From a virus, in the IMG/VR virus record IMGVR_UViG_3300026519_000057, positions 1 through 26,282 of that record: a stretch of DNA of 26,282 nucleotides; one strand, written 5' to 3'. The position numbers were made by a program, and so were the translations under genes. Every line of letters begins with the position of its first letter. The first letter of the stretch is position 1. This document shows, one piece after another, positions 11,775 to 26,282 of this stretch. A model generated the notes under the pieces. That model had not been told where the DNA came from and ran no database searches. It saw only the letters and a list, made by a program, of their open reading frames with translations.

Positions 11775-13930
11775 GCCAGCAATCCCCCAAGGTCTTCCAA
11801 GGATTGATCTTCGTCCTCTTTAGGGGGTGTTGCAGAATCTGGCAAGGACGGATCGAAAACATTGTCATTTTCATCCCACTCCCGGGCGAACGGTGGGGGA
11901 TCCGTCCAGTCTATCTTCTCGATGGAAATGTCCGGCATGAGTGTCGCCGCCTTGGCGTAGACCATAAGGTCCCACGCCTCGTTCCGGCGGCGGTGCGGGT
12001 TGATCCACCCCTTCTTGGGGTCCTTGATCTCCGCACACAACTCTTCGTAGAACCACCCCGGCAGCCACTCCGGGAAATGCACCATACCGCCAGGCTCGTC
12101 CCGCATGAGCATGGCGTCGACGGAATCCTTGAGCACCTGGGTGTTGAGCTCCCAGACCGGAACCTCTCCCCGAATAACCGCGTAACGATCGCGCCGACCG
12201 CTGTCCGGGAATGTCAGCTTCACGCGAGGCCCGCTCGGCCGGCCCCGCACCAGATGAAACCGCGCATCCAGCCCCGGCTCCCAGACATACAAGGGTTGGC
12301 CTGTTTCGTCCACGAAACCATCGTCGCCGCCGTGCCGCAGCCAATAGACGAACTTGTAGGCCGCCTCCGTGGCGCCGCGCAGACCGGCGCTGTCGCTCAC
12401 CACGGAATGAATGCGCATCACCCGACCACTGCCATCGGCCAGCGGATACGTCCGGAGCAGCACCTCTTCCACCAACTGGCGCCAATCTTCGGGATGACTG
12501 GCCGGATCGATGCGCTTGCGTTCGCCGTCCTCGTCCAGCCGGCGGGATTTGTAGATGTTGAACCGGTCGATGACCCACCAATCCGGATCGCCATGCAGCC
12601 CGGCACCGATACCGATGACCTGGACCACGAACCAACGCTTCTGCACGTCGATCGCCGCGACCAGAAAACGCACGCCCTCCGGCACTTCCTTCTCCGGCAA
12701 TGGGCGGGCGCGGTTGCGCAGCACCTCCGGCGTGCGTGCGTGCTGCTGCGTAACGGGGATATACGGCTCCGCCAGCGACACGTTGGTTACCGCGCGGAGC
12801 TCCTGATCCTCACCGGTCTGTTCGAACGTGCGCAGCGCCGACAGATAGTCGAACACCAACCCCTGCAGGGTAACGAACGTGGCGGCAGGCCCTTTCAACC
12901 AGAACGACGCAATGTCCGTGCGCCGCAGTTTTCCCTCCACCTCCCCGTTCTTGCGCCACACCTGCCCGTCCCCGATCCAGCGGGCGTGGTGGCGGTTCAT
13001 CTCCACCCGCGCTGGGGTGTTCTCGCTCGCCGAATCGTGATAGCGCGCCTGGCACTGCGGGCATTCGATGCGTGCCGTATGCGACGCCTCCGTGATGTCC
13101 GGGATGTCGTCCCAGCGGACGGTCTTCCAGGACGGCTCGAACGCATGTCCGCAGCACACGCATCTCCAATACCAGCGCCGACGATCGCCCTGGTTGTATA
13201 TGGGGAGGATGCCACCAAAGGCCGGCGGGGCCTCATGCGGCGTCTCCGGCGTCCAGTTGGCGTGGTCGATGGGAAACGACGGCGAGCTTTCGGCCACTAC
13301 CATCGCGCGCCGGCCGAACGTCGTGGCGCGCTTGCGGGCAAGGGCGAACGGGGCGCCTTCGCCGCCGATGTCGACGTCCATGCGGTCGTAGTCGGCCAGC
13401 CACAGGGACCCCACGGACCGACCCGCGAAGTTGGCCTTGCTCGGCCACGACACGATGAGATTCATGCGCTGCCGGAACTCCACGCGGAACACCACGCGGT
13501 CAACGATACTGTCGGCCAACACCGGCGTGTGCTCCAGGACACGCTCCAGTTTCACCTTGGACCACTCCTCGGCCCGGTGCTTGGCCGCGTCGTAGAAGAT
13601 CATGTCGGTCGGATCGCAGGCCACCTTGTAGGTCAGCCAGTTGAAAAACATGTCCGACTTGCCGCACTGGGCCGGCCCGACGAATACTGCGGCCCGATAC
13701 TCGTCGCTTTCGAGCACGTCCATGAAATCCACGAGATACGGGGTCGTCGAGTTGCGCCACGGACCCACATACGCGCCCGGGTTATACACCTGGCGATAGC
13801 GCTCCGCCGCTTCCGACACCGTCAGGTCCTCCGGCGGGCGCAGCACATCCGGGATGGCATCGATGACTTCGCGCAGCTTGCGGACCTCGACCCGCTGAAC
13901 GAGCCTGGCGTCGTCAACCCTTTCGTTCAT
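11771..13930 (-). CDS. Terminase large subunit, GpA family
   Basis: A 719-residue packaging motor with ATPase and nuclease domains. Walker A is GPAQCGKS at residues 85-92. A Walker-B-like acidic run WLADYDRMD is at about 177-185. Four cysteines, CVCC (257-260) and CPQC (290-293), look like a zinc-binding insert. The nuclease domain begins near VAAIDVQ (about 425), the usual acidic residue motif of GpA terminases, and further conserved stretches include SDSAGLRGA and NPHRRRNEAWDLMVYA near the end. The acidic C-terminal tail may contact the portal. Length is close to lambda gpA (641) plus extensions. AAGGG precedes the ATG. GpA-type terminases generally act on cos sites. Confidence 0.95.
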   Translation of the reverse strand: MNERVDDARLVQRVEVRKLREVIDAIPDVLRPPEDLTVSEAAERYRQVYNPGAYVGPWRNSTTPYLVDFMDVLESDEYRAAVFVGPAQCGKSDMFFNWLTYKVACDPTDMIFYDAAKHRAEEWSKVKLERVLEHTPVLADSIVDRVVFRVEFRQRMNLIVSWPSKANFAGRSVGSLWLADYDRMDVDIGGEGAPFALARKRATTFGRRAMVVAESSPSFPIDHANWTPETPHEAPPAFGGILPIYNQGDRRRWYWRCVCCGHAFEPSWKTVRWDDIPDITEASHTARIECPQCQARYHDSASENTPARVEMNRHHARWIGDGQVWRKNGEVEGKLRRTDIASFWLKGPAATFVTLQGLVFDYLSALRTFEQTGEDQELRAVTNVSLAEPYIPVTQQHARTPEVLRNRARPLPEKEVPEGVRFLVAAIDVQKRWFVVQVIGIGAGLHGDPDWWVIDRFNIYKSRRLDEDGERKRIDPASHPEDWRQLVEEVLLRTYPLADGSGRVMRIHSVVSDSAGLRGATEAAYKFVYWLRHGGDDGFVDETGQPLYVWEPGLDARFHLVRGRPSGPRVKLTFPDSGRRDRYAVIRGEVPVWELNTQVLKDSVDAMLMRDEPGGMVHFPEWLPGWFYEELCAEIKDPKKGWINPHRRRNEAWDLMVYAKAATLMPDISIEKIDWTDPPPFAREWDENDNVFDPSLPDSATPPKEDEDQSLEDLGGLLA

Positions 13931-14762
13931 CGCGCTTGCCCTTCGTCAATCTGTCCAATCCCTTGCGGGCGGCATCCTTGCGGTGCGCCTCCTTCTCTGC
14001 CATCTCGACCAACTCCGTCATGGCCTGCTCGTCCTCGGTGATGACGAGCCCGGCCCCGCGCTTGCGCATGGCATCCGCGGCCTCGATGACGCGATCGAGC
14101 TCCGCCGCGTAGGACTCCCACGCCGCTTCGCTGACGACCCGCCTGACCGCCTTCTCCGCCACCCGCATGACCTCCCGCACGGCCTGCTTGACCTCCTCAT
14201 ATTGCTGTGGCGAAAGCCCGAGCCGGCGTTCCATGTCCTGCGGAAACGCCATCAGCGCCTCGCGCAACGCCGACAGCATGTCCATCATGACCGCCTCTAT
14301 GTGCTCACGGCGCCACAGCTCGTTGGCGGCTTCCATTGCGGCCAGCCGATGTTTCAAGGCCGTCCAGAACTGCGGCTGATAGCGCACCGGGAGGACCTCG
14401 TTGATCTTGGCCGGCGGTGCAGACGAAAGCCAGTCGGCCACCTGCTGTTTCGGCTCCACCAGGTAACTGGCCGCCACACCGACGTCATACAACGGGCCGC
14501 TGCGTCCCGAGATACGCACGATAGGGGCCTTGGCCAGGCGGGCCCTGACGATATGCGGCGGCTGGCGGAACACGGTTGACAGCCAGTGCACCGATACGCC
14601 ACCGATGACCGCCATCGGATCGAGCCGACCGAGCGGGCGATACTTCCTGGCCTCGCGGACAGCCGCGGCCTCGTCTTCGTCGTATCCGTCGAGGGGAGGC
14701 AGGATGTCTCCCGCCAGCTCTCCCTCGTCGGGAATGTCCTGACCGTCAACACCCGATTTCAT
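13914..14762 (-). CDS. Putative terminase small subunit / DNA-recognition protein
   Basis: A 282-residue protein directly upstream of, and overlapping by 17 bases, the large terminase gene. Residues about 52-102 (VIGGVSVHWLSTVFRQPP then RLAKAPIVRI) look like a winged-helix or Nu1-type helix-turn-helix followed by the wing segment SGPLYDVGVAASYLVEP. This would fit recognition of the packaging site and recruitment of the large subunit. The rest is helical with a long coiled-coil-like region, ending in a basic tail KGKRDERKG. The ATG at 14762 is chosen because GGG lies at normal spacing; 14768 and 14798 are alternatives. The call rests on position and on the HTH-like segment, not on a firm family match. 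Confidence 0.65.
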   Translation of the reverse strand: MKSGVDGQDIPDEGELAGDILPPLDGYDEDEAAAVREARKYRPLGRLDPMAVIGGVSVHWLSTVFRQPPHIVRARLAKAPIVRISGRSGPLYDVGVAASYLVEPKQQVADWLSSAPPAKINEVLPVRYQPQFWTALKHRLAAMEAANELWRREHIEAVMMDMLSALREALMAFPQDMERRLGLSPQQYEEVKQAVREVMRVAEKAVRRVVSEAAWESYAAELDRVIEAADAMRKRGAGLVITEDEQAMTELVEMAEKEAHRKDAARKGLDRLTKGKRDERKG

Positions 14763-16149
14763 CGGCATAGACCCGTATGGCTTCCAACATGGCGTCATTG
14801 CCGCTCTTCTTCCGGTCGAGCAGCTCTAGTGCCACCTCGTCAAACGTGCCTTTCGCCACAATGCGATGAACGAACACGGTTTTCGACTTCTGCCCCGACC
14901 GATGCAGTCTCTTGATGCCCTGCAGGTAGTGCTCCAGGTTGTTCGTGGGACCATACCAGCACATGTGGTGTCCGCCAAACTGCATGTTCAAGCCGTATGC
15001 TACCGACGCTGGATGGGCGAGCAGAAGCCGGATGCGACCGGCATTCCAGTCCTCGTAGTCCGTTTCACTGTCCCCGTAGCACCGGGCGAACGGAAACATT
15101 TCGAGAATGGCGTCGCGGTCCGACTGGAACATCCAAAACAGGAGCAACGGCTCGCCGCCGAGATCCTCCAACAACTCCTCAAGCGCGCGCAGTTTCTCGG
15201 AATGGAACCGCACCGGATCGCCGTCGCTGTCATACACGTGCCCCGACGAGAACTGCAGTAGCTTGTTGGCCAGCACGGCGCTGTTGGCCGCCTCGATGTT
15301 CTTCTCGGCCAGGATGGCATCACGGGCCAGCCTCTTGTATATCTTTCGGGCCCTGGGCGGCAATTCGACCCGGCGATCCGTAACCACCAACGGCGGGAGG
15401 TCCAGATAGTCCTCCTCCTTCATGAAGAACACCACATCCCGTATCCGACCCATGATCTCCTCATGCGCGCCGGCCACCGGCACCCACTTGTGCGCGCGCG
15501 GGATCGGCACGAAGAACCGCCGCAGAAAGACCTCCCGATTCTTCCCAAGCCGCTGACCACCGTCCATGAGAAACAGGGGCGCCCACCAGTCCTGCAGTCC
15601 TTGCGGTGCCGGCGTTCCCGACATCAGCACCACTCGCTTGAAATGCCCCCTCCGACGGCACAACATGGCAAAGGCCGACAGGCGTCGGCCGCCCATAGAG
15701 CCGTCCTTGCGCGTCGTCTTCGGCGTGCGAAGACGCCCCGACTTCAACCGCGACGCCTCGTCATACACGAGCGCGTCAAAGGGCCATTCGTCCTTCCCGA
15801 AATACCTATACAACCAGGGAATGTTCTCGCGGTTGATGACATAGACGTCGGCGTCGACCGCCAGGGCCCTCTCACGCTCCTGCCGGGACCCGAGAACCAG
15901 CGACATGCGCAAACCCCTGGCGAACTCCCACTTACGGCGCTCCGTCGGCCACGTATCCCGAGCCACGGTCAAGGGCGCCACCACCAACACCTTCCGGACG
16001 CCCAGCCGATCGCGCCACATCTGCATGGCCTTCAACACCACCGCCGTCTTCCCGAGCCCCGGCTCCGCGGCCAGATAGACATACGGCTTCTCCACGGCCC
16101 AGCGGACCATGCGACGCTGATACGGTCTGAGATCCTTCCAGCCCGGCAT
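14746..16149 (-). CDS. SNF2-type DEAD-like helicase/translocase
   Basis: A 467-residue superfamily 2 DNA translocase. Motif I is EPGLGKT (about 29-35), motif II DEAS (130-133), motif III SGTPAP (177-182), motif V-like AYGLNMQF, and motif VI RLHRSGQ (414-420). This full set is typical of the compact SNF2-like helicases in phage replication cassettes. It follows a VRR-NUC nuclease gene, a pairing seen in many phages where the nuclease and translocase are thought to act together in recombination or DNA processing. The ATG in the TGATG junction is taken; a GTG one codon upstream is also possible. Its stop overlaps the small terminase candidate, so replication and packaging genes are continuous. 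Confidence 0.92.
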   Translation of the reverse strand: MPGWKDLRPYQRRMVRWAVEKPYVYLAAEPGLGKTAVVLKAMQMWRDRLGVRKVLVVAPLTVARDTWPTERRKWEFARGLRMSLVLGSRQERERALAVDADVYVINRENIPWLYRYFGKDEWPFDALVYDEASRLKSGRLRTPKTTRKDGSMGGRRLSAFAMLCRRRGHFKRVVLMSGTPAPQGLQDWWAPLFLMDGGQRLGKNREVFLRRFFVPIPRAHKWVPVAGAHEEIMGRIRDVVFFMKEEDYLDLPPLVVTDRRVELPPRARKIYKRLARDAILAEKNIEAANSAVLANKLLQFSSGHVYDSDGDPVRFHSEKLRALEELLEDLGGEPLLLFWMFQSDRDAILEMFPFARCYGDSETDYEDWNAGRIRLLLAHPASVAYGLNMQFGGHHMCWYGPTNNLEHYLQGIKRLHRSGQKSKTVFVHRIVAKGTFDEVALELLDRKKSGNDAMLEAIRVYADEIGC

Positions 16150-20514: not shown

Positions 20515-21153
20515 TCAGCCCTTCTTGCGGCGCAGCAGGGATGCCTTGCCGGAAGACTTCTTCGCCGGATCCCGTTCCTTGGCCTCTTCCAGGACCTCCA
20601 GCGCCTGAGCCGGCTCCAGGGACATGAGATCATCGACGCCGAACTTCTCCTGCATGATGCCGAACACGAGATCGACGCGAGCCTCGATGTCCTCCTCCTT
20701 CACCTTGCCGCTTTCCAGCCAGTCACCGAACATCTCCTGGATCTCGTCCATCGTCAGGTCGGCGGCCATGTCTTCCGGGTCGGCCGGAGCGGCATCATCC
20801 ACCTCGTTGGCTTTCGGGGCCTCGGCCTGGACTTCCTCCGCTGCCGCCTTCTTCGCGGCGGCCTTCTTCGTCGTCTTCTTCGCGGCAGTCTTCTTCGTCG
20901 TCTTCTTCGCCGTCTGCTTCTTCGGCGTGGGCTCCTCCGCCGGTTCTGCCGGTTCTGCTGGTTCTGCCGGTTCTGCCGGTTCTGCCGCTGCCCCGCCTAC
21001 GGAAGCCATCGCCGCCGCGGCTTCCCTGGACGCCTCGGCGGCCATCCGATACACGCCCGCCACGGCGTCTATGGATTCACGCAGCTTGCGTGTTTCCTCG
21101 ACGCTCTTGCCGATTACCTCAACCAGCTCAGCCAGCCTTTCCTCGATGCTCAT
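20515..21153 (-). CDS. Lysine-rich, histone-H1-like protein with Glu-Pro-Ala tract, function unknown
   Basis: A 212-residue protein starting at an ATG with AAGGAG. Its parts are an N-terminal coiled coil (SIEERLAELVEVIGKSVEE, residues 2-36) and an Ala-rich helix. A tandem Ala-Glu-Pro tract (about 58-75) follows, then a Lys/Ala/Thr tail resembling bacterial histone-H1-like proteins (TPKKQTAKKTTKKTAAKKTT and KKAAAKKAAAEE). An acidic helical domain ending in another basic patch completes it. The mixture suggests a DNA- or nucleoprotein-binding partner with an oligomerising head. The AEP tract is encoded by a 9-bp tandem repeat, so its length may vary. No known family is certain; the helical C-terminal domain may be an interaction module for the nuclease or ssDNA-binding protein next to it. 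Confidence 0.75.
   Translation of the reverse strand: MSIEERLAELVEVIGKSVEETRKLRESIDAVAGVYRMAAEASREAAAAMASVGGAAAEPAEPAEPAEPAEPAEEPTPKKQTAKKTTKKTAAKKTTKKAAAKKAAAEEVQAEAPKANEVDDAAPADPEDMAADLTMDEIQEMFGDWLESGKVKEEDIEARVDLVFGIMQEKFGVDDLMSLEPAQALEVLEEAKERDPAKKSSGKASLLRRKKG
20940..20984. repeat. Five 9-bp tandem repeats (CCGGTTCTG) within a gene
   Basis: Five tandem units, one with a single T for C change, encode the Ala-Glu-Pro tract of the lysine-rich protein. The 9-bp period keeps reading frame, so unit gain or loss would lengthen or shorten the linker without disrupting the protein. Confidence 0.85.
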
Positions 21154-21154
21154 C

Positions 21155-21784
21155 TCAATCTCCTTCCGTCGTTGCTTCTGTCTCCGTCCCGGACACGCCG
21201 GTCGAACCCTGGTGCACATACACCCGCAACAGGTGATACGCACACCAACTCGTCCCCGGTTCCACCGGATGCCCGCAATAGGCCCACCGGTTCGTCCGGG
21301 GATCCCCTTCCACCCAACGGCAGCGCCCGTCCTGCGGGGCCTGCTGGGGGTGTTTGGACAACCGCATCGCCGGTTTGACAGGGTCGCATCCAGCCAGACG
21401 ACGGAGCGCCTGCCCGGCCTTGCGGTTGATGCCTGTTTCCGGGGACACCACCGTCCTTCGTCCTCCGCCCACCGATGCCGCCAACGTCTCCCGGACCAGG
21501 CGATGTATGAGCCCATCGGCTTCGGCCTCGTCGGGTTCGGCGGTCTCGCTTTCTTCCTCACGCCCCGGCCCGCCACCGGAAAAGTCTTTCAATTCTTGCC
21601 GCAGTCGACGGGCGGTGTCAACATCCCCAAACAGCCCGAGCCTGGAAGCCCGCGTTACCACGGCAGCCCTGGTCCGCCCCGTCTCACGGCACACCAGCGT
21701 CAGCCACCCCTGCATGCCGAACACCCGGCACAGCAGGTCGTCCTCCTCAGGTGTCCACCGACGCCGTGTGCTGTTGGCGGCCAT
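21155..21784 (-). CDS. GcrA-like regulator (SANT/HTH-like N-terminus, Cys-rich C-terminus)
   Basis: A 209-residue protein resembling GcrA, an alphaproteobacterial regulator that binds sigma70 holoenzyme and m6A-methylated GANTC promoters. The N-terminal RRRWTPEEDDLLCRVFGMQG followed by TRAAVVTRASRLGLFG (to about 52) is like the GcrA helix-turn-helix. The C-terminal CRWVEGDP, WAYCGHPVEPG and WCAYHLLRVYV (155-190) match the family pattern C-(R/K)-W-x-x-GDP ... FCG ... YCxxH. Cys155, Cys170, Cys181 and His184 could bind zinc. The middle (about 70-150) is acidic and probably flexible. The start lies 38 bases inside the end of the primase-helicase gene. A regulator of phage or host transcription is inferred; DNA replication-linked function is the alternative. 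Confidence 0.72.
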   Translation of the reverse strand: MAANSTRRRWTPEEDDLLCRVFGMQGWLTLVCRETGRTRAAVVTRASRLGLFGDVDTARRLRQELKDFSGGGPGREEESETAEPDEAEADGLIHRLVRETLAASVGGGRRTVVSPETGINRKAGQALRRLAGCDPVKPAMRLSKHPQQAPQDGRCRWVEGDPRTNRWAYCGHPVEPGTSWCAYHLLRVYVHQGSTGVSGTETEATTEGD

Positions 21785-24700
21785 CCGACGGTGCCCCCTG
21801 CTCTCCTTCCAGGCGTTCGCCGCATCCGAACCACTCGAAATCCTGCGTCTGCCACGCCATCGCCACCTCTTCCGGCACCCAGTCGCGCGCCACGATCCCG
21901 GTGCGCCGGGCGAACTCCGCGTAAGGCTCCTTCACGTGGTCGAGCAGGATCGCCCGGTAATACGTCGTCGTGGCCCCGCCCCCGACACGGACACGACGCA
22001 ACTCGAACACCGGCAGGGTGGACAACCAGCGGCTCACGTAGATGGCCCGGCCACGAGCCGTCGAGGCCAGCGCCTTCCACGGATCCCAGGACGCCAGACG
22101 GGCGTCGACGGTGCTGCCCCGCACCAGCGCCAGCCAACCGTCCGCATCGAGAATGTCGTCCGATGATACCCCGTCCGGCAGCAATTCGTGCTTTTCGGCC
22201 CACAACACGAGATTGCTGACATCCGGCCATTCGAACAACGGACCAGGCTCGAACACCCAGCGGGACACATACTGCCCGACGACCTCCATCGGGTTCTCCT
22301 TGCGGTGGGCCTCGTTCATCTCCTCCTGGGCCCTGGCGGCATCACGCGACAGCACCGGCACCCGGCCTTCACGCCACAGCGCCAGAGCCTCGGCCCACAA
22401 CTGGGGGCGCCACTCCACCAACCGGTCAACGTCCAGCTGTGCGCGCATGCGCACCAGCAGGAACCGACGGTTGCCGGTGTCGTCAGAGAACAGCTGCACC
22501 TCGTTCGTCGTGCCCACCGTCACGAACCGGCGTGGCATCACCACCGCCTTGCGGGCATAGGCCGGCCGGGCGTTGTCCTCCTGGCGGGTGATGAACGACT
22601 TGATGGCCTCGACGGATGCATGCGACAGGCTGGCCATCTCGGGCAGCTCGACCACGATGGCGGAGGCCGTCTCCTCCATCACCGTCTTCGGGGAGAGCGC
22701 CTGCGGGTGGGTGGATTCGATGGTCGCGAACAGCTTCTCCGACGGTGGCAGGAGACGGGCGAACGTCGACTTGCCGATACCCTGCCGGCCCTGGACGACC
22801 AGCATGTAATCGAACTTCGCTCCAGGCTCCATCACCCGCGACACGAGCCCCAGGAAGAACACCTCACCGGCTTCCCGATGGTATTCATCATCCGGTGTCC
22901 CCAACAGCTCCGGAAACAGGCGCCGCAGGCGCGACGTGCCATCCCACTCGATGCCATCCAGCCACCACCGCACGACGGCGTCCGGCGTGGCCATCGCCCG
23001 GCGCGCGCCGACATCGACCAGGTCGTGAACGGTCTGCTTCGTGGCGCGAACCCCGCACGCCAGCAGCGGCTTCGCCGACTTGCAGGCCGGCGGGACGGCT
23101 AGGGCCAGCCCGAGGGCCGCAACGGCGGAATCCGCCACCTGATCGCCGGCCTCCAGCGGGAGATCGAGACCCAGCCATTCGGCCGGCACGGCAAGCCGCG
23201 GAGCCTGCTCCTCACCGGTGGTGAAGAACAGGTCGAACAGGGGGTGCCGCGACAACAACGCCAGGTTCTCCGGCGATGACGGCCTGATGTTACCCTTCCT
23301 GTCGCGCCCCAGACCGGCGAGCAGATCCTGCATTCGCTGGCGATACCACTCCAGGAAAGCCTTCCTGGACGCAAATGGCGCCTCCGCCAGCCCGTAATGC
23401 GCCATCGCGGCCTGCCGGGCCGGCGGCACGTCCGTCGAGCCGGTCGTGGGGTTCACGGGCTGGCCGGCGCGCCGTCTGGACGAGAACAGACGAGCCAGAC
23501 CGGAGACAACGGGGTCATCCGGCCGGCTCTCGGTAGTCAACGAGGGAAGAACGTCATGGCCGGGATGGAATCCGGCGGAGAGGCTTCCTGGTGGTGGTGA
23601 TGGTGGCGGTCCAGGTTTGCGTTCCCGTGGGCGGGGTGCCTCTCCGCCGGCGTCCCGGCAACCACCTGCAAGGATGGTTTTCCTGCGCACACAGGGAGAA
23701 TGCGCATCCCCCTCATACGCCGTCTCCGGATCGTCGTCAAGCCCTTTCAGGGCCTCCGACGCCTCGAACCGGCGGAACCTCTCCGTCTTCTCGTTCGAAG
23801 GGTCATACAGCCATTCGACCATCGCCTGGTAGGAGGGCAAATCCGTATATGCCGTTTCCTGGCCCTCCGGAGCCGCAGGAGAAGCGTTATCGAGTTTCCC
23901 GAACAGGTGTATGCGGACAAGGTCAAACGCGTCTCTGGCACGTCCTGAGGCCGGATCCGTGCCATGATGGGAATACAGGCGCTGCCCGTCCGACAGGATG
24001 ACGGCCCCGGCCGGCCCTTTCGACGAACGGTGTCGCCAGCGGTCGGCGTCGGCGTCGGCCGGCTCGTAGACGTCGTCCAGGAAACGCTCGATGGCCGTTA
24101 CGACGTCGCCGACCCAACGGTTGAACGCGCCGGCCGGACCCGGCCGCTCCCGCGGATCCCGCTGCTCCGTCGCCGCCACGAACGCCGGCACGCCATCGGC
24201 GACGATGATGTCGTCGAGGCTGTCGTGGTCTTCGAGGATGGCCGCCTCGATGGCCTTGGCGTCGAGCAGGGTGTCGATGGTCGGGATGGCGGCCCTCGCC
24301 GCGGCGCCATCTTCGGTCCGGGGCTCCGGCACGTGAAGGCGGGCCCGGTATTCCTGGTCGCTGGACACGGTCGGGAAAAAGGCCAGCTGGGCCGGACGAT
24401 AGCAGGTGCGGTCGACGACGTCGTCGACGCCGAGGGTCCTGGCGACCCAATGGGCGATGGCGGCCTTCTTCTCCGGCGTGGGCCACGTGTCCGGATGGAT
24501 GGGGATGATCAGCCGCACGTGCGGGTCGTCCGGCCCGTGGCTGCGCGTGGTATGCGCGATGAAGGTAATGCCGGTCAGCGGGTCGGCCGGCTCCGCGGCC
24601 TCCGGATCGAGCAGGCGGGCGGCCAGGTCCGGCTCGATGTCGTCGAAGTCGAAGGCCAGCATGGTGATGGCCTCGATGTCGGCCGCCACCCGTGTCGGAC

Positions 24701-25007
24701 GGGCGAACAGGGCCGGGATGAAGGCTCCGGCTGCACCCTTCGCCTGGGCTTTCCGGCTCGGCGACATGCGCTCGTATTGCGCTATCGTGGTCCGGGCCGA
24801 ACGCAGCGGGGCGGCGAAGCGCTTCATGAACCCGGACAGCGACACCAGCTTCCGGGCAGCCTCCTTCGCCGTGGGCCGGCGCACGAACTGGTATGCGATG
24901 CGGACGGCCGGAACGGGCGTGGCCGGTTGATGAACGATGTCCAGCTCGCTCCTGACGGTTCTGGCTGTTTTCTTCAGGAGACGGGAAACGGGTTTGCTGA
25001 ATGCCAT
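21747..25007 (-). CDS. Primase-helicase: AEP-like primase fused to VirE/SF3-like helicase
   Basis: A 1086-residue multidomain protein that probably initiates phage DNA replication. The N-terminal part shows an archaeo-eukaryotic-primase pattern, with metal-binding AFDFDD (118-123), His163 in DPHVRLIIP, and YRPAQLAFFP (about 203-212). Then comes RLYSHHGTDP (about 343-352) and a segment GRARDAFDLVRIHLFG of the kind found between primase and helicase domains. A Pro-rich linker (about 455-475) separates the C-terminal virulence-associated E / SF3-like helicase. That has Walker A GRQGIGKST (740-748), Walker B IVVELPEM (784-791), VTVGTTN and DDTGNRRFLLV (842-852). ATG 25007 is chosen for the AGAAGGA five bases before it; the open frame extends to 25175. 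It leads the whole leftward operon. Confidence 0.9.
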   Translation of the reverse strand: MAFSKPVSRLLKKTARTVRSELDIVHQPATPVPAVRIAYQFVRRPTAKEAARKLVSLSGFMKRFAAPLRSARTTIAQYERMSPSRKAQAKGAAGAFIPALFARPTRVAADIEAITMLAFDFDDIEPDLAARLLDPEAAEPADPLTGITFIAHTTRSHGPDDPHVRLIIPIHPDTWPTPEKKAAIAHWVARTLGVDDVVDRTCYRPAQLAFFPTVSSDQEYRARLHVPEPRTEDGAAARAAIPTIDTLLDAKAIEAAILEDHDSLDDIIVADGVPAFVAATEQRDPRERPGPAGAFNRWVGDVVTAIERFLDDVYEPADADADRWRHRSSKGPAGAVILSDGQRLYSHHGTDPASGRARDAFDLVRIHLFGKLDNASPAAPEGQETAYTDLPSYQAMVEWLYDPSNEKTERFRRFEASEALKGLDDDPETAYEGDAHSPCVRRKTILAGGCRDAGGEAPRPRERKPGPPPSPPPGSLSAGFHPGHDVLPSLTTESRPDDPVVSGLARLFSSRRRAGQPVNPTTGSTDVPPARQAAMAHYGLAEAPFASRKAFLEWYRQRMQDLLAGLGRDRKGNIRPSSPENLALLSRHPLFDLFFTTGEEQAPRLAVPAEWLGLDLPLEAGDQVADSAVAALGLALAVPPACKSAKPLLACGVRATKQTVHDLVDVGARRAMATPDAVVRWWLDGIEWDGTSRLRRLFPELLGTPDDEYHREAGEVFFLGLVSRVMEPGAKFDYMLVVQGRQGIGKSTFARLLPPSEKLFATIESTHPQALSPKTVMEETASAIVVELPEMASLSHASVEAIKSFITRQEDNARPAYARKAVVMPRRFVTVGTTNEVQLFSDDTGNRRFLLVRMRAQLDVDRLVEWRPQLWAEALALWREGRVPVLSRDAARAQEEMNEAHRKENPMEVVGQYVSRWVFEPGPLFEWPDVSNLVLWAEKHELLPDGVSSDDILDADGWLALVRGSTVDARLASWDPWKALASTARGRAIYVSRWLSTLPVFELRRVRVGGGATTTYYRAILLDHVKEPYAEFARRTGIVARDWVPEEVAMAWQTQDFEWFGCGERLEGEQGAPSDGRQQHTASVDT

Positions 25008-25012
25008 CGCGT

Positions 25013-25125
25013 CCTTCTCCGTGGTGTCTTGCCACGCCCGCGAGACCAGACCCACACCACGCATGGAACCCGTCTCATCAATGACCGGGCCTGGGAAAGA
25101 CCCCAGGCCCGGTGTGGCAAGACAC
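25013..25125 (-). promoter_or_regulatory. Structured leader (three-way junction-like) before the primase-helicase gene
   Basis: On the leftward mRNA a perfect 12-bp outer stem (GTGTCTTGCCAC at 25114-25125 in mRNA sense, partner 25024-25035) encloses an 11-bp hairpin. That hairpin has arms 25102-25112 and 25085-25095 and a 6-base loop. A weaker GAGAC/GTCTC stem (25072-25076 with 25042-25046) is also enclosed. The 3' strand of the outer stem ends about five bases from the Shine-Dalgarno (AGAAGGA, about 25013-25019). Two nested perfect stems make chance unlikely. The role as translational or transcriptional control is inferred. Confidence 0.6.
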
Positions 25126-25160
25126 TCGGAGTTCCACGACCGTCGAAAACGGTCTGGTCC

Positions 25161-25209
25161 CAGGTTCGGCCCCACCTATCGGCGCCTGGCGGGAAATCAA
25201 CCGAACCTG
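25161..25209. repeat. 9-bp inverted repeat CAGGTTCGG
   Basis: Arms at 25161-25169 and 25201-25209 are perfectly complementary with a 31-base spacer. It lies just upstream of the structured leader. It could be an operator half-site pair or an additional RNA stem; no further support is visible. Confidence 0.4.
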
Positions 25210-25378
25210 CCAGCTCGATACCAGGGCCAGGAAGGGCTGTCAAGCGGTTTCGACGGGCTGGCTGGATGGCCGGCGGGCGGCCGGCTGGTGGCCGGCGAAT
25301 TGATACAAAAAGCGAACGCAGCAAAGGCGATGGGGGGAAAGGGGGGTAGGAGGAATAAATGACTTGTTTGGGGTGGTG

Positions 25379-25420
25379 TTTCACACGCGCGCCTGCGCCT
25401 ACGCGCGCGCGCGTGTGAAA
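25379..25420. repeat. 14-bp perfect inverted repeat TTTCACACGCGCGC
   Basis: Arms 25379-25392 and 25407-25420 are exact complements around a 14-base spacer that is itself GC/alternating. Both arms contain a TTCACA edge that is one base short of a DnaA-box match. No U-tract follows on either side beyond AAAA/TTTT at the arm ends. A cruciform, protein-binding site, or bidirectional terminator are all possible. Confidence 0.6.
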
Positions 25421-25561
25421 ACGACTCAGAACCCATTCGTTAGGGAGAGATTGCAACATTGCTGCGCCGGAAAGAAAAACAAAGAAAGACAGGGCGTTAG
25501 CTGCAGCAAACCAGGCGCAGCAAAGGCGTTGCCAACCAGGAGACAAGACAGACATTGCTGC

Positions 25562-25591
25562 GTCATACATGTATAAAGCTAAACACGTAAA
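25562..25591 (-). promoter_or_regulatory. Weak sigma70-like promoter candidate, leftward
   Basis: On the minus strand TTTACG (25586-25591) and TATGAC (25562-25567) are separated by 18 bases, each matching the consensus at four of six positions. It points toward the primase-helicase operon and overlaps one iteron-like site and the palindrome ATACATGTAT (25565-25574). No better leftward promoter was found in this AT-richer part of the control region. Confidence 0.25.
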
Positions 25592-25814
25592 CAGTGTTAC
25601 ATGTTTCTGACGTCGCAGCTATCCCGGCCATGATGGAGATTGCTGCGCCAGAATCATGGTAAGATGACACTACAAACGCAGGTTGCTGCAAGGAAAATCT
25701 TCCTATCTCCTGTTTTGGCCGGTCTTTCCGGGAGGCCATGGGGCCGGTGAAACCGGCCAAAACATCCAGTTGGCCTTTCCGCCATGCGGAAACACCTGCC
25801 TGGGGGTTTTCCAC
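25563..25814 (-). CDS. Possible small protein in the control region, unrecognised
   Basis: An 83-codon frame starting at GTG 25814, with AAAGG nine bases upstream, would encode a soluble small protein (MENPQAGVSAWRKGQLDV at the start). Another frame on the same strand (25654-26067) and frames on the plus strand overlap it. The frame also contains a 13-bp inverted repeat and three of the iteron-like motifs, which argues that the DNA may be conserved for another reason. No domain is recognised. It is listed because its ribosome site is the best in this interval. Confidence 0.22.
   Translation of the reverse strand: MENPQAGVSAWRKGQLDVLAGFTGPMASRKDRPKQEIGRFSLQQPAFVVSSYHDSGAAISIMAGIAATSETCNTVYVFSFIHV
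25711..25764. repeat. 13-bp perfect inverted repeat TGTTTTGGCCGGT
   Basis: Arms 25711-25723 and 25752-25764 are exact complements with a 28-base spacer. A second, tight hairpin (TTTCCGC/GCGGAAA, 25776-25792, loop CAT) follows 11 bases later. The pair lies between the iteron-like cluster and a DnaA-box match. It could fold as a cruciform or as RNA hairpins on either transcript. Confidence 0.65.
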
Positions 25815-26032
25815 AGAATACAACCTTTCGGAGAACCATATTCCCCTTTTCGGTGTGTCCTCGTTGGCGTGATTCGCCAGCCGATTGCAGAGATGGCGTG
25901 ATTCCGCGCCTTTTCGTCAGAAAAGCGGGGAATCCCGTGCAGAGCGATGGCTCGGCGTCCCCCCGCCCACCGGCCCAGCGGCCAGAAGGACCCGCCGCCA
26001 GGCCGTTAACCATAATCACCGGAAAGCCTTGA
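25784..26032 (+). CDS. Possible short rightward frame, Ash/Icd-region-like (tentative)
   Basis: An 82-codon ATG frame on the opposite strand to all other genes. The segment SVCPRWRDSPADCRDGVIPR and the following LFVRKAGNP remind me of short hypothetical proteins near ash/icd loci of enteric P4-like prophages, but this is from memory only. No Shine-Dalgarno precedes the ATG, and the frame overlaps hairpins and direct repeats. It may be non-coding conserved DNA rather than a gene. Confidence 0.18.
   Translation: MRKHLPGGFPQNTTFRRTIFPFSVCPRWRDSPADCRDGVIPRLFVRKAGNPVQSDGSASPRPPAQRPEGPAARPLTIITGKP
25807..25815 (+). promoter_or_regulatory. DnaA-box match TTTTCCACA
   Basis: TTTTCCACA fits the consensus TTWTNCACA at all nine positions. 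A single box is weak evidence, but it lies close to the iteron-like cluster and large inverted repeats, in the only gene-poor segment upstream of the replication operon. Confidence 0.35.
25864..25904. repeat. Direct repeat TGGCGTGATTC, operator-like
   Basis: TGGCGTGATTC occurs at 25865-25875 and 25894-25904, 29 bp apart. The first copy is part of a palindrome TGGCG-TGATT-CGCCA (25865-25879). Both copies include a GANTC site, and a further GAATC occurs at 25930. This pattern suits a dimeric repressor or a methylation-sensitive regulator. Confidence 0.45.
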
Positions 26033-26057
26033 CAAGACACATGGCACGAAACTTGCA

Positions 26058-26088
26058 ACGCGCGCATACGCGCATGCGCGCGCGCGTG
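26058..26088. repeat. 31-bp alternating purine-pyrimidine tract (Z-DNA-prone)
   Basis: Uninterrupted purine-pyrimidine alternation dominated by CG steps, including GCGCGCGCGCG. It directly precedes the G-rich repeat array. Such tracts adopt Z-DNA under negative supercoiling. Confidence 0.7.
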
Positions 26089-26105
26089 GGATTACCTTGC
26101 ATGGG

Positions 26106-26282
26106 CAGGGCAGGGCAGGGCAGGGCAGGGCAGGGCAGGGCAGGGCAGGGCAGGGCAGGGCCAGCAGGGCCAGGGCCAGCAGGGCCGGCCAAGGCCAGCA
26201 GGGCCGGCCAGGGCCAGCAGGGCCGGCCAGGGCCAGCAGGGCCGGCCAGGGCCAGCAGGGCGTGGCAGGGCAGGGCAGGGCA
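26106..26282. repeat. Composite G-rich repeat array: CAGGG 5-mers flanking a 19-bp unit
   Basis: Eleven perfect CAGGG units (26106-26160) are followed by a shortened copy and then four near-perfect copies of the 19-bp unit GGCCAGCAGGGCCGGCCAG (26174-26249) and a degenerate copy. CAGGG units resume from 26266 to the window edge. The 19-mer contains the palindrome GGCCGGCC. Neither period is a multiple of three, so it is unlikely to be coding. The plus strand holds several potential G-quadruplexes (GGG separated by CA). Confidence 0.85.

Follow-up and report, generated by a model that had tools for sequence, protein, structure and literature searches.

A cluster of TTGCTGC repeats surrounding the softest DNA of a phage fragment of 26,282 b is very probably a replication origin, because distant relatives share the layout of repeats around soft DNA beside the same primase-helicase gene; its initiator is probably the phage's own AEP/VapE-type primase-helicase. 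The fragment, referred to here as the window, is an entire linear IMG/VR record. The initial annotation had put forward an origin with an AEP-helicase initiator as a candidate, and this is now the best-supported reading. The repeats, the soft DNA between them, the resemblance of the initiator to PriRep1 and the recurrence of such a layout next to the VapE-type gene of many other phages are direct observations, and a correlation of repeat type with the initiator C-terminus adds to them.

Phage identity and gene organization

Every gene of the window runs leftward up to 25007 with intergenic gaps of 101 bp or less, and 25008-26282 is the only larger gap. This segment is non-coding, and the ORFs within it do not display the GC3 bias typical of this phage's genes, so that its earlier description as gene-poor holds. 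The encoded proteins (Pfam/PHROG) include a DUF2800 exonuclease, an Enc34/DUF2815-type ssDNA-binding protein, a family-A polymerase and an SNF2 helicase, and virion and packaging genes (terminase including terL, portal, major head protein) are present as judged by protein matches. The gene order DUF2800-ssb-polA-VRR-SNF2-terS-terL-portal is common to the window and to Casjensviridae and related phages. Ruegeria vB_RpoS-V16, Synechococcus S-ESS1, Rhodobacter RcIroh and Stenotrophomonas Suzuki share with it the DUF2800 exonuclease, DUF2815-type SSB, polA, VRR-NUC, SNF2, terS, terL and portal, at protein identities of mostly 25-48%. By gene set and order, as far as a linear 26 kb fragment displays them, the phage is Casjensviridae-like. 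The best single related locus (L184) has a terL of 57% identity; IMG/VR and GTDB genomes yielded no close relative, a search of phage records for DNA similar to the region gave no match, and Rfam and tRNA scans found nothing.

The genes show a strong depletion of GANTC (25 sites in 1-25175 against about 111 expected under a Markov model), unlike the non-coding end (5 against 2.3 expected). Together with a GcrA-like gene at 21155-21784, the depletion suggests an alphaproteobacterial host with CcrM/GcrA. GANTC sites were also considered as a sign of a GcrA-bound origin and set aside, the enrichment in the gap being non-significant (P 0.08); the earlier suggestion of the GcrA-like protein as an initiator found no evidence in its favour.

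The repeat cluster and the soft element

The elements of the cluster, in order of position, are as follows.

25318-25324, minus strand: repeat copy 1 (GCAGCAA on the plus strand), exact match, distant from the core
25379-25420, no strand: 19-nt-arm CG-alternating inverted repeat (hairpin), left edge of the cluster
25459-25465, plus strand: repeat copy 2 (TTGCTGCGCC), exact match
25498-25504, plus strand: degenerate repeat TAGCTGC with one mismatch, ranked 8th among the PWM sites of the contig, overlapping the oppositely oriented copy 3
25503-25509, minus strand: repeat copy 3, exact match
25517-25523, minus strand: repeat copy 4 (TTGCTGCGCC), exact match
25555-25561, plus strand: repeat copy 5, exact match, abutting the soft element
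25562-25611, no strand: candidate DNA-unwinding element (66% AT), the softest 50 bp anywhere in the contig
25615-25621, minus strand: degenerate repeat TAGCTGC beyond the soft element, with one mismatch, ranked 10th among the PWM sites
25640-25646, plus strand: repeat copy 6 (TTGCTGCGCC), exact match
25683-25689, plus strand: repeat copy 7, exact match
25711-25764, no strand: 21-nt-arm inverted repeat, right edge of the cluster

Exact matching confirmed the seven TTGCTGC/GCAGCAA heptamers in both orientations, earlier reported within about 375 bp, and placed them within 372 bp (25318-25689), with a tight core of 231 bp. The cluster had been described as immediately upstream of the primase-helicase; the side is correct, but the distance to the start codon is 311-682 bp (452 bp for the tight core). 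The 10-mer TTGCTGCGCC, by which the repeat had been named, is exact in three of the seven copies and CGCAGCAA is present in five, whereas the heptamer is conserved in all seven. With a PWM built from the copies, two extra one-mismatch TAGCTGC sites were located amid the cluster, and nine of the contig's ten best sites fall inside it, seven of which had built the matrix.

The genome-wide count that had been proposed as a check revealed 15 heptamer copies against 3.5 expected, at unequal density, the eight outside the cluster being dispersed within genes. When all 7-mers were searched over 375 bp, TTGCTGC gave the joint top cluster (7 copies), tied solely with a lysine-codon repeat inside orf353 (20515-21576), a gene with a lysine/alanine/threonine-rich repeat tract and no Pfam or PHROG match. 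In Markov-shuffled versions of the contig the best 7-mer clusters had only 3-5 copies, 5 being rare, and none of 2000 shuffles of the non-coding segment alone went above 5. The segment is also AT-richer, as had been claimed (56-58% GC against 65% for the contig).

The soft element ranks first in the contig in the nearest-neighbour stability scan (z 4.3), with five exact copies and one degenerate copy to its left and two exact copies and one degenerate copy to its right. The large inverted repeats noted previously are real, as listed above, and a further CG-alternating repeat (26058-26091), 82% similar to that at 25379-25420, brackets the repeat core together with it. The DnaA-box match of the initial annotation was found at 25807-25815; it counts for little, because one match against 0.38 expected is at chance level and it lies outside the repeats, and it was rejected as support for an origin. 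The GC-skew check did not point to the cluster either: the cumulative minimum lies at 23416, 2.2 kb off in a contig that is itself a fragment, and was dropped as support.

The primase-helicase as proposed initiator

21747-25007, minus strand: VapE-type primase-helicase, 1086 aa, likely ATG at 25007, preceded by GGAGAAGG
21950-22160, minus strand: C-terminal region, residues ~950-1019, helix-helix-helix-strand-strand (AlphaFold, moderate confidence)

The protein matches Pfam VapE (5.6e-65) and PHROG DNA helicase (5.9e-125). Its AlphaFold model has a pLDDT of 74 overall with a well-predicted helicase, and the best PDB match of the model is PriRep1 (7pds), a vapE-like helicase with dsDNA (E 1.2e-18; TM 0.66-0.70 by target). 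The N-terminal part matches PHROG DNA primase families and keeps the invariant DxD (D120, D122), while the Pfam scan gave no primase domain above threshold. The C-terminal region is a candidate winged-helix-like, DNA-reading domain in the predicted model; in a fold search against the PDB, the C-terminal part alone (model confidence 60) gave no significant match.

In the proposed mechanism, the primase-helicase would bind the TTGCTGC repeats flanking 25562-25611 via its C-terminal region, melt this soft stretch, load itself as the replicative helicase and prime synthesis, and replication thus begun would be handed over to the family-A polymerase and the ssDNA-binding protein from the same gene run.

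Survey of relatives

An alignment of ten VapE-type proteins was used as the query and yielded 80 IMG/VR loci, which are partly non-independent, and a repeat cluster was scored at p <= 0.01 within 700 bp of the gene. A significant cluster is present 3' of the VapE-type gene in 44 of 75 usable flanks and 5' of it in none of 78, against a background of 9 in 320 random stretches. In 31 of the 75 there was no significant 3' cluster, some clusters lying just beyond 700 bp; L136 has 12 copies outside the test range. The median relative carries 6 copies over ~235 bp, compared with the 231 bp of the window core, and in 28 of the 44 the repeat span contains the softest 50-mer (14.8 expected, P 5e-5). 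The same test applied to the window is positive 5' of the gene and negative 3' of it, where gcrA is found and no cluster.

Repeat sequences differ from phage to phage, and no close relative has TTGCTGC repeats. Beside the VapE-type gene, AE4_2 carries GTATCCA (10 copies), StAB GGAACAA (7), RcIroh ACTGAGC (7), Suzuki ACTGTCAC, RuegV16 AATCGGAC and Staphylococcus 3A GTTGCATCA. In AE4_2, StAB and Suzuki, the VapE-side gap contains the strongest repeat cluster as well as the softest DNA in the genome examined, and RuegV16 and RcIroh come near to this pattern; AE4_2, StAB, BcepNY3, RuegV16 and Suzuki all have their softest 50-mer in the gap with the repeats, as does the window. Where the gene is divergent, the gap on its promoter side has no cluster, except a weak one in S-ESS1. 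Of eleven additional IMG/VR relatives, most have a cluster just 3' of the gene together with the softest DNA of the examined stretch (for example TGGGACA in 11 copies in G008 and TATCCCA in 9 in G016), and most of the nearest relatives by polymerase with enough 3' sequence have a cluster, such as seven copies of GGGGGACA in L184. L187, one of these polymerase relatives, has a 4-copy TGTCACAA cluster 5' of the gene and may be another 5' case, because its contig stops 23 bp past the gene and the 3' flank is lost.

Second strong clusters occur a few kb from the primase-helicase cluster in G013 (11828-12148, CGGATTC, 8 copies), G004 (45235-45518, GTTCGCA, 7 copies) and G006 (57968-58269, TGCACCA, 9 copies). 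In BcepNY3 (L082), seven TCTGTCA copies with the same spacing are found at both 14719-14943 and 35099-35323, 20.4 kb apart. Both blocks sit in gaps between divergent genes, one of them 5' of a VapE-type primase gene. This is the clearest 5' case apart from the window, but the function of the block is ambiguous because it occurs twice in the genome; it looks regulatory or duplicated, and could be a regulatory block or an origin present in two copies.

Relation of repeat type to protein region

Comparison of 37 non-redundant loci, by a repeat similarity measure that is crude, showed that repeats tend to be more alike where the C-terminal regions share higher identity (rho 0.26, permutation p 0.006). 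When the helicase is controlled for, the C-terminus retains a partial correlation of 0.24; the reverse control leaves -0.11 for the helicase. These values suggest that the repeat sequence tracks the C-terminal region and not the helicase, the effect being modest.

Position of the cluster and alternative functions

Several observations weigh against an origin. The clusters of the relatives lie 3' of the gene while that of the window lies 5', the expected place of promoters and operators of the leftward run, and the 5' cluster of BcepNY3 has its second copy 20 kb off. To these are added the 31 relatives with no significant cluster, the distant GC-skew minimum, the moderate confidence of the C-terminal model with no significant PDB match of its own, and the lack of these repeats in any close relative. 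The repeats might instead be operators, bound by a phage regulator that acts on the promoter from which the leftward replication and structural genes are expressed; this is the main rival reading, improbable but kept alive by the unusual 5' placement. It would accord with a cluster 5' of the first gene of an apparently single long leftward run, in the only large non-coding gap, and with the two identically spaced BcepNY3 clusters upstream of divergent gene sets. However, the repeats have no fixed-spacing dyad and flank the softest DNA in both orientations; the clusters of the surveyed relatives lie 3' of the gene and never 5', away from its promoter; the contig has no second TTGCTGC cluster; and the repeat type follows the initiator C-terminus. 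Origin and operator functions could also occur together in one cluster.

The unusual placement may be explained within the origin reading. In the window the primase-helicase is co-directional with the replication genes, whereas in the relatives it is divergent, and in either arrangement the cluster occupies the outer flank; the flipped window reads cluster, primase-helicase, exonuclease, polymerase. We infer that the initiator gene is here inverted beside a fixed origin. The wider reading, in which in addition every phage uses a repeat of its own that the initiator C-terminus recognizes, has roughly even chances.

A terminase-binding packaging site (cosB/pac-like) is very unlikely. In Suzuki (L085), ~110 bp separate the end of the cluster (55467-55977) from a cos overhang that is predicted, and the ends of several Casjensviridae-like contigs lie close to the cluster, but the repeats of StAB and AE4_2 are kilobases from terminase genes and record ends, terS of the window is ~10.5 kb away, and cluster location follows VapE and not terminase. 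Given the proximity in Suzuki, origin and packaging site may therefore be neighbours in Casjensviridae. Repeat arrays are also typical of plasmid partition sites, but a centromere-like site for partition, or a site for another protein array with no part in initiation, is the least probable function, since no ParA/ParB family match occurs among the window genes scanned and the soft element and VapE linkage would be left unexplained.

Comparison with known replication systems

In PICI, the origin consists of iterons on either side of AT-rich DNA beside rep, and a plasmid carrying rep and ori replicates (PMC6092414). The phages surveyed here appear to have this organization as well. The window shares with the PICI/SaPI pri-rep-ori modules (PMC6092414; 7pds) a VapE-type primase-helicase, element-specific short repeats flanking AT-rich DNA, and adjacency of the repeats to the initiator gene. 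It differs in that the PICI/SaPI origin is immediately 3' of rep while the cluster here is 5' of the gene, and in that a PICI is a satellite relying on the virion genes of its helper, whereas the window has its own terL, portal and major head protein. By analogy, the origin probably works like a PICI-type origin, though the phage itself is not a PICI; 'works like' and not 'is' applies because the helicase and the repeat-AT-repeat arrangement are found and the 3' position is not.

The Casjensviridae phages likewise have a repeat cluster and soft DNA beside the primase-helicase, but their gene is oriented divergently to the replication genes and has the cluster on its 3' side. BcepNY3 resembles the window in having a seven-copy cluster with the softest DNA of the genome 5' of the VapE-type primase gene, and differs in its duplicated block. 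DnaA-dependent iteron plasmid origins also have repeats adjoining AT-rich DNA, whereas here the repeats are in both orientations and the DnaA box is at chance level; no plasmid Rep family was found among the window genes scanned.

No described origin for Casjensviridae or VapE phages was found in the open-access literature, and earlier subscription reports may exist. The present reading would provide a testable rule, an origin beside the VapE-type gene and usually 3' of it, for a large class of phages for which no mapped origins were found. It would also offer dozens of natural initiator-repeat pairs for studying DNA recognition by the protein, and would connect the replicons of phages with those of satellites.

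Other features of the non-coding end

Nested inverted repeats occupy 25024-25125 in the 5' leader of the primase-helicase, with arms at 25024-25038 and 25111-25125 around a perfect 12-bp hairpin; they are possibly an RNA leader or terminator, with no Rfam match. A GC-rich tandem array (26103-26282, GGGCA plus a 19-bp unit) forms the right end of the contig, and the relatives L181 (CTGACCGC unit) and L177 likewise end in tandem arrays just past the repeat cluster, which may represent either a shared feature or an assembly break.
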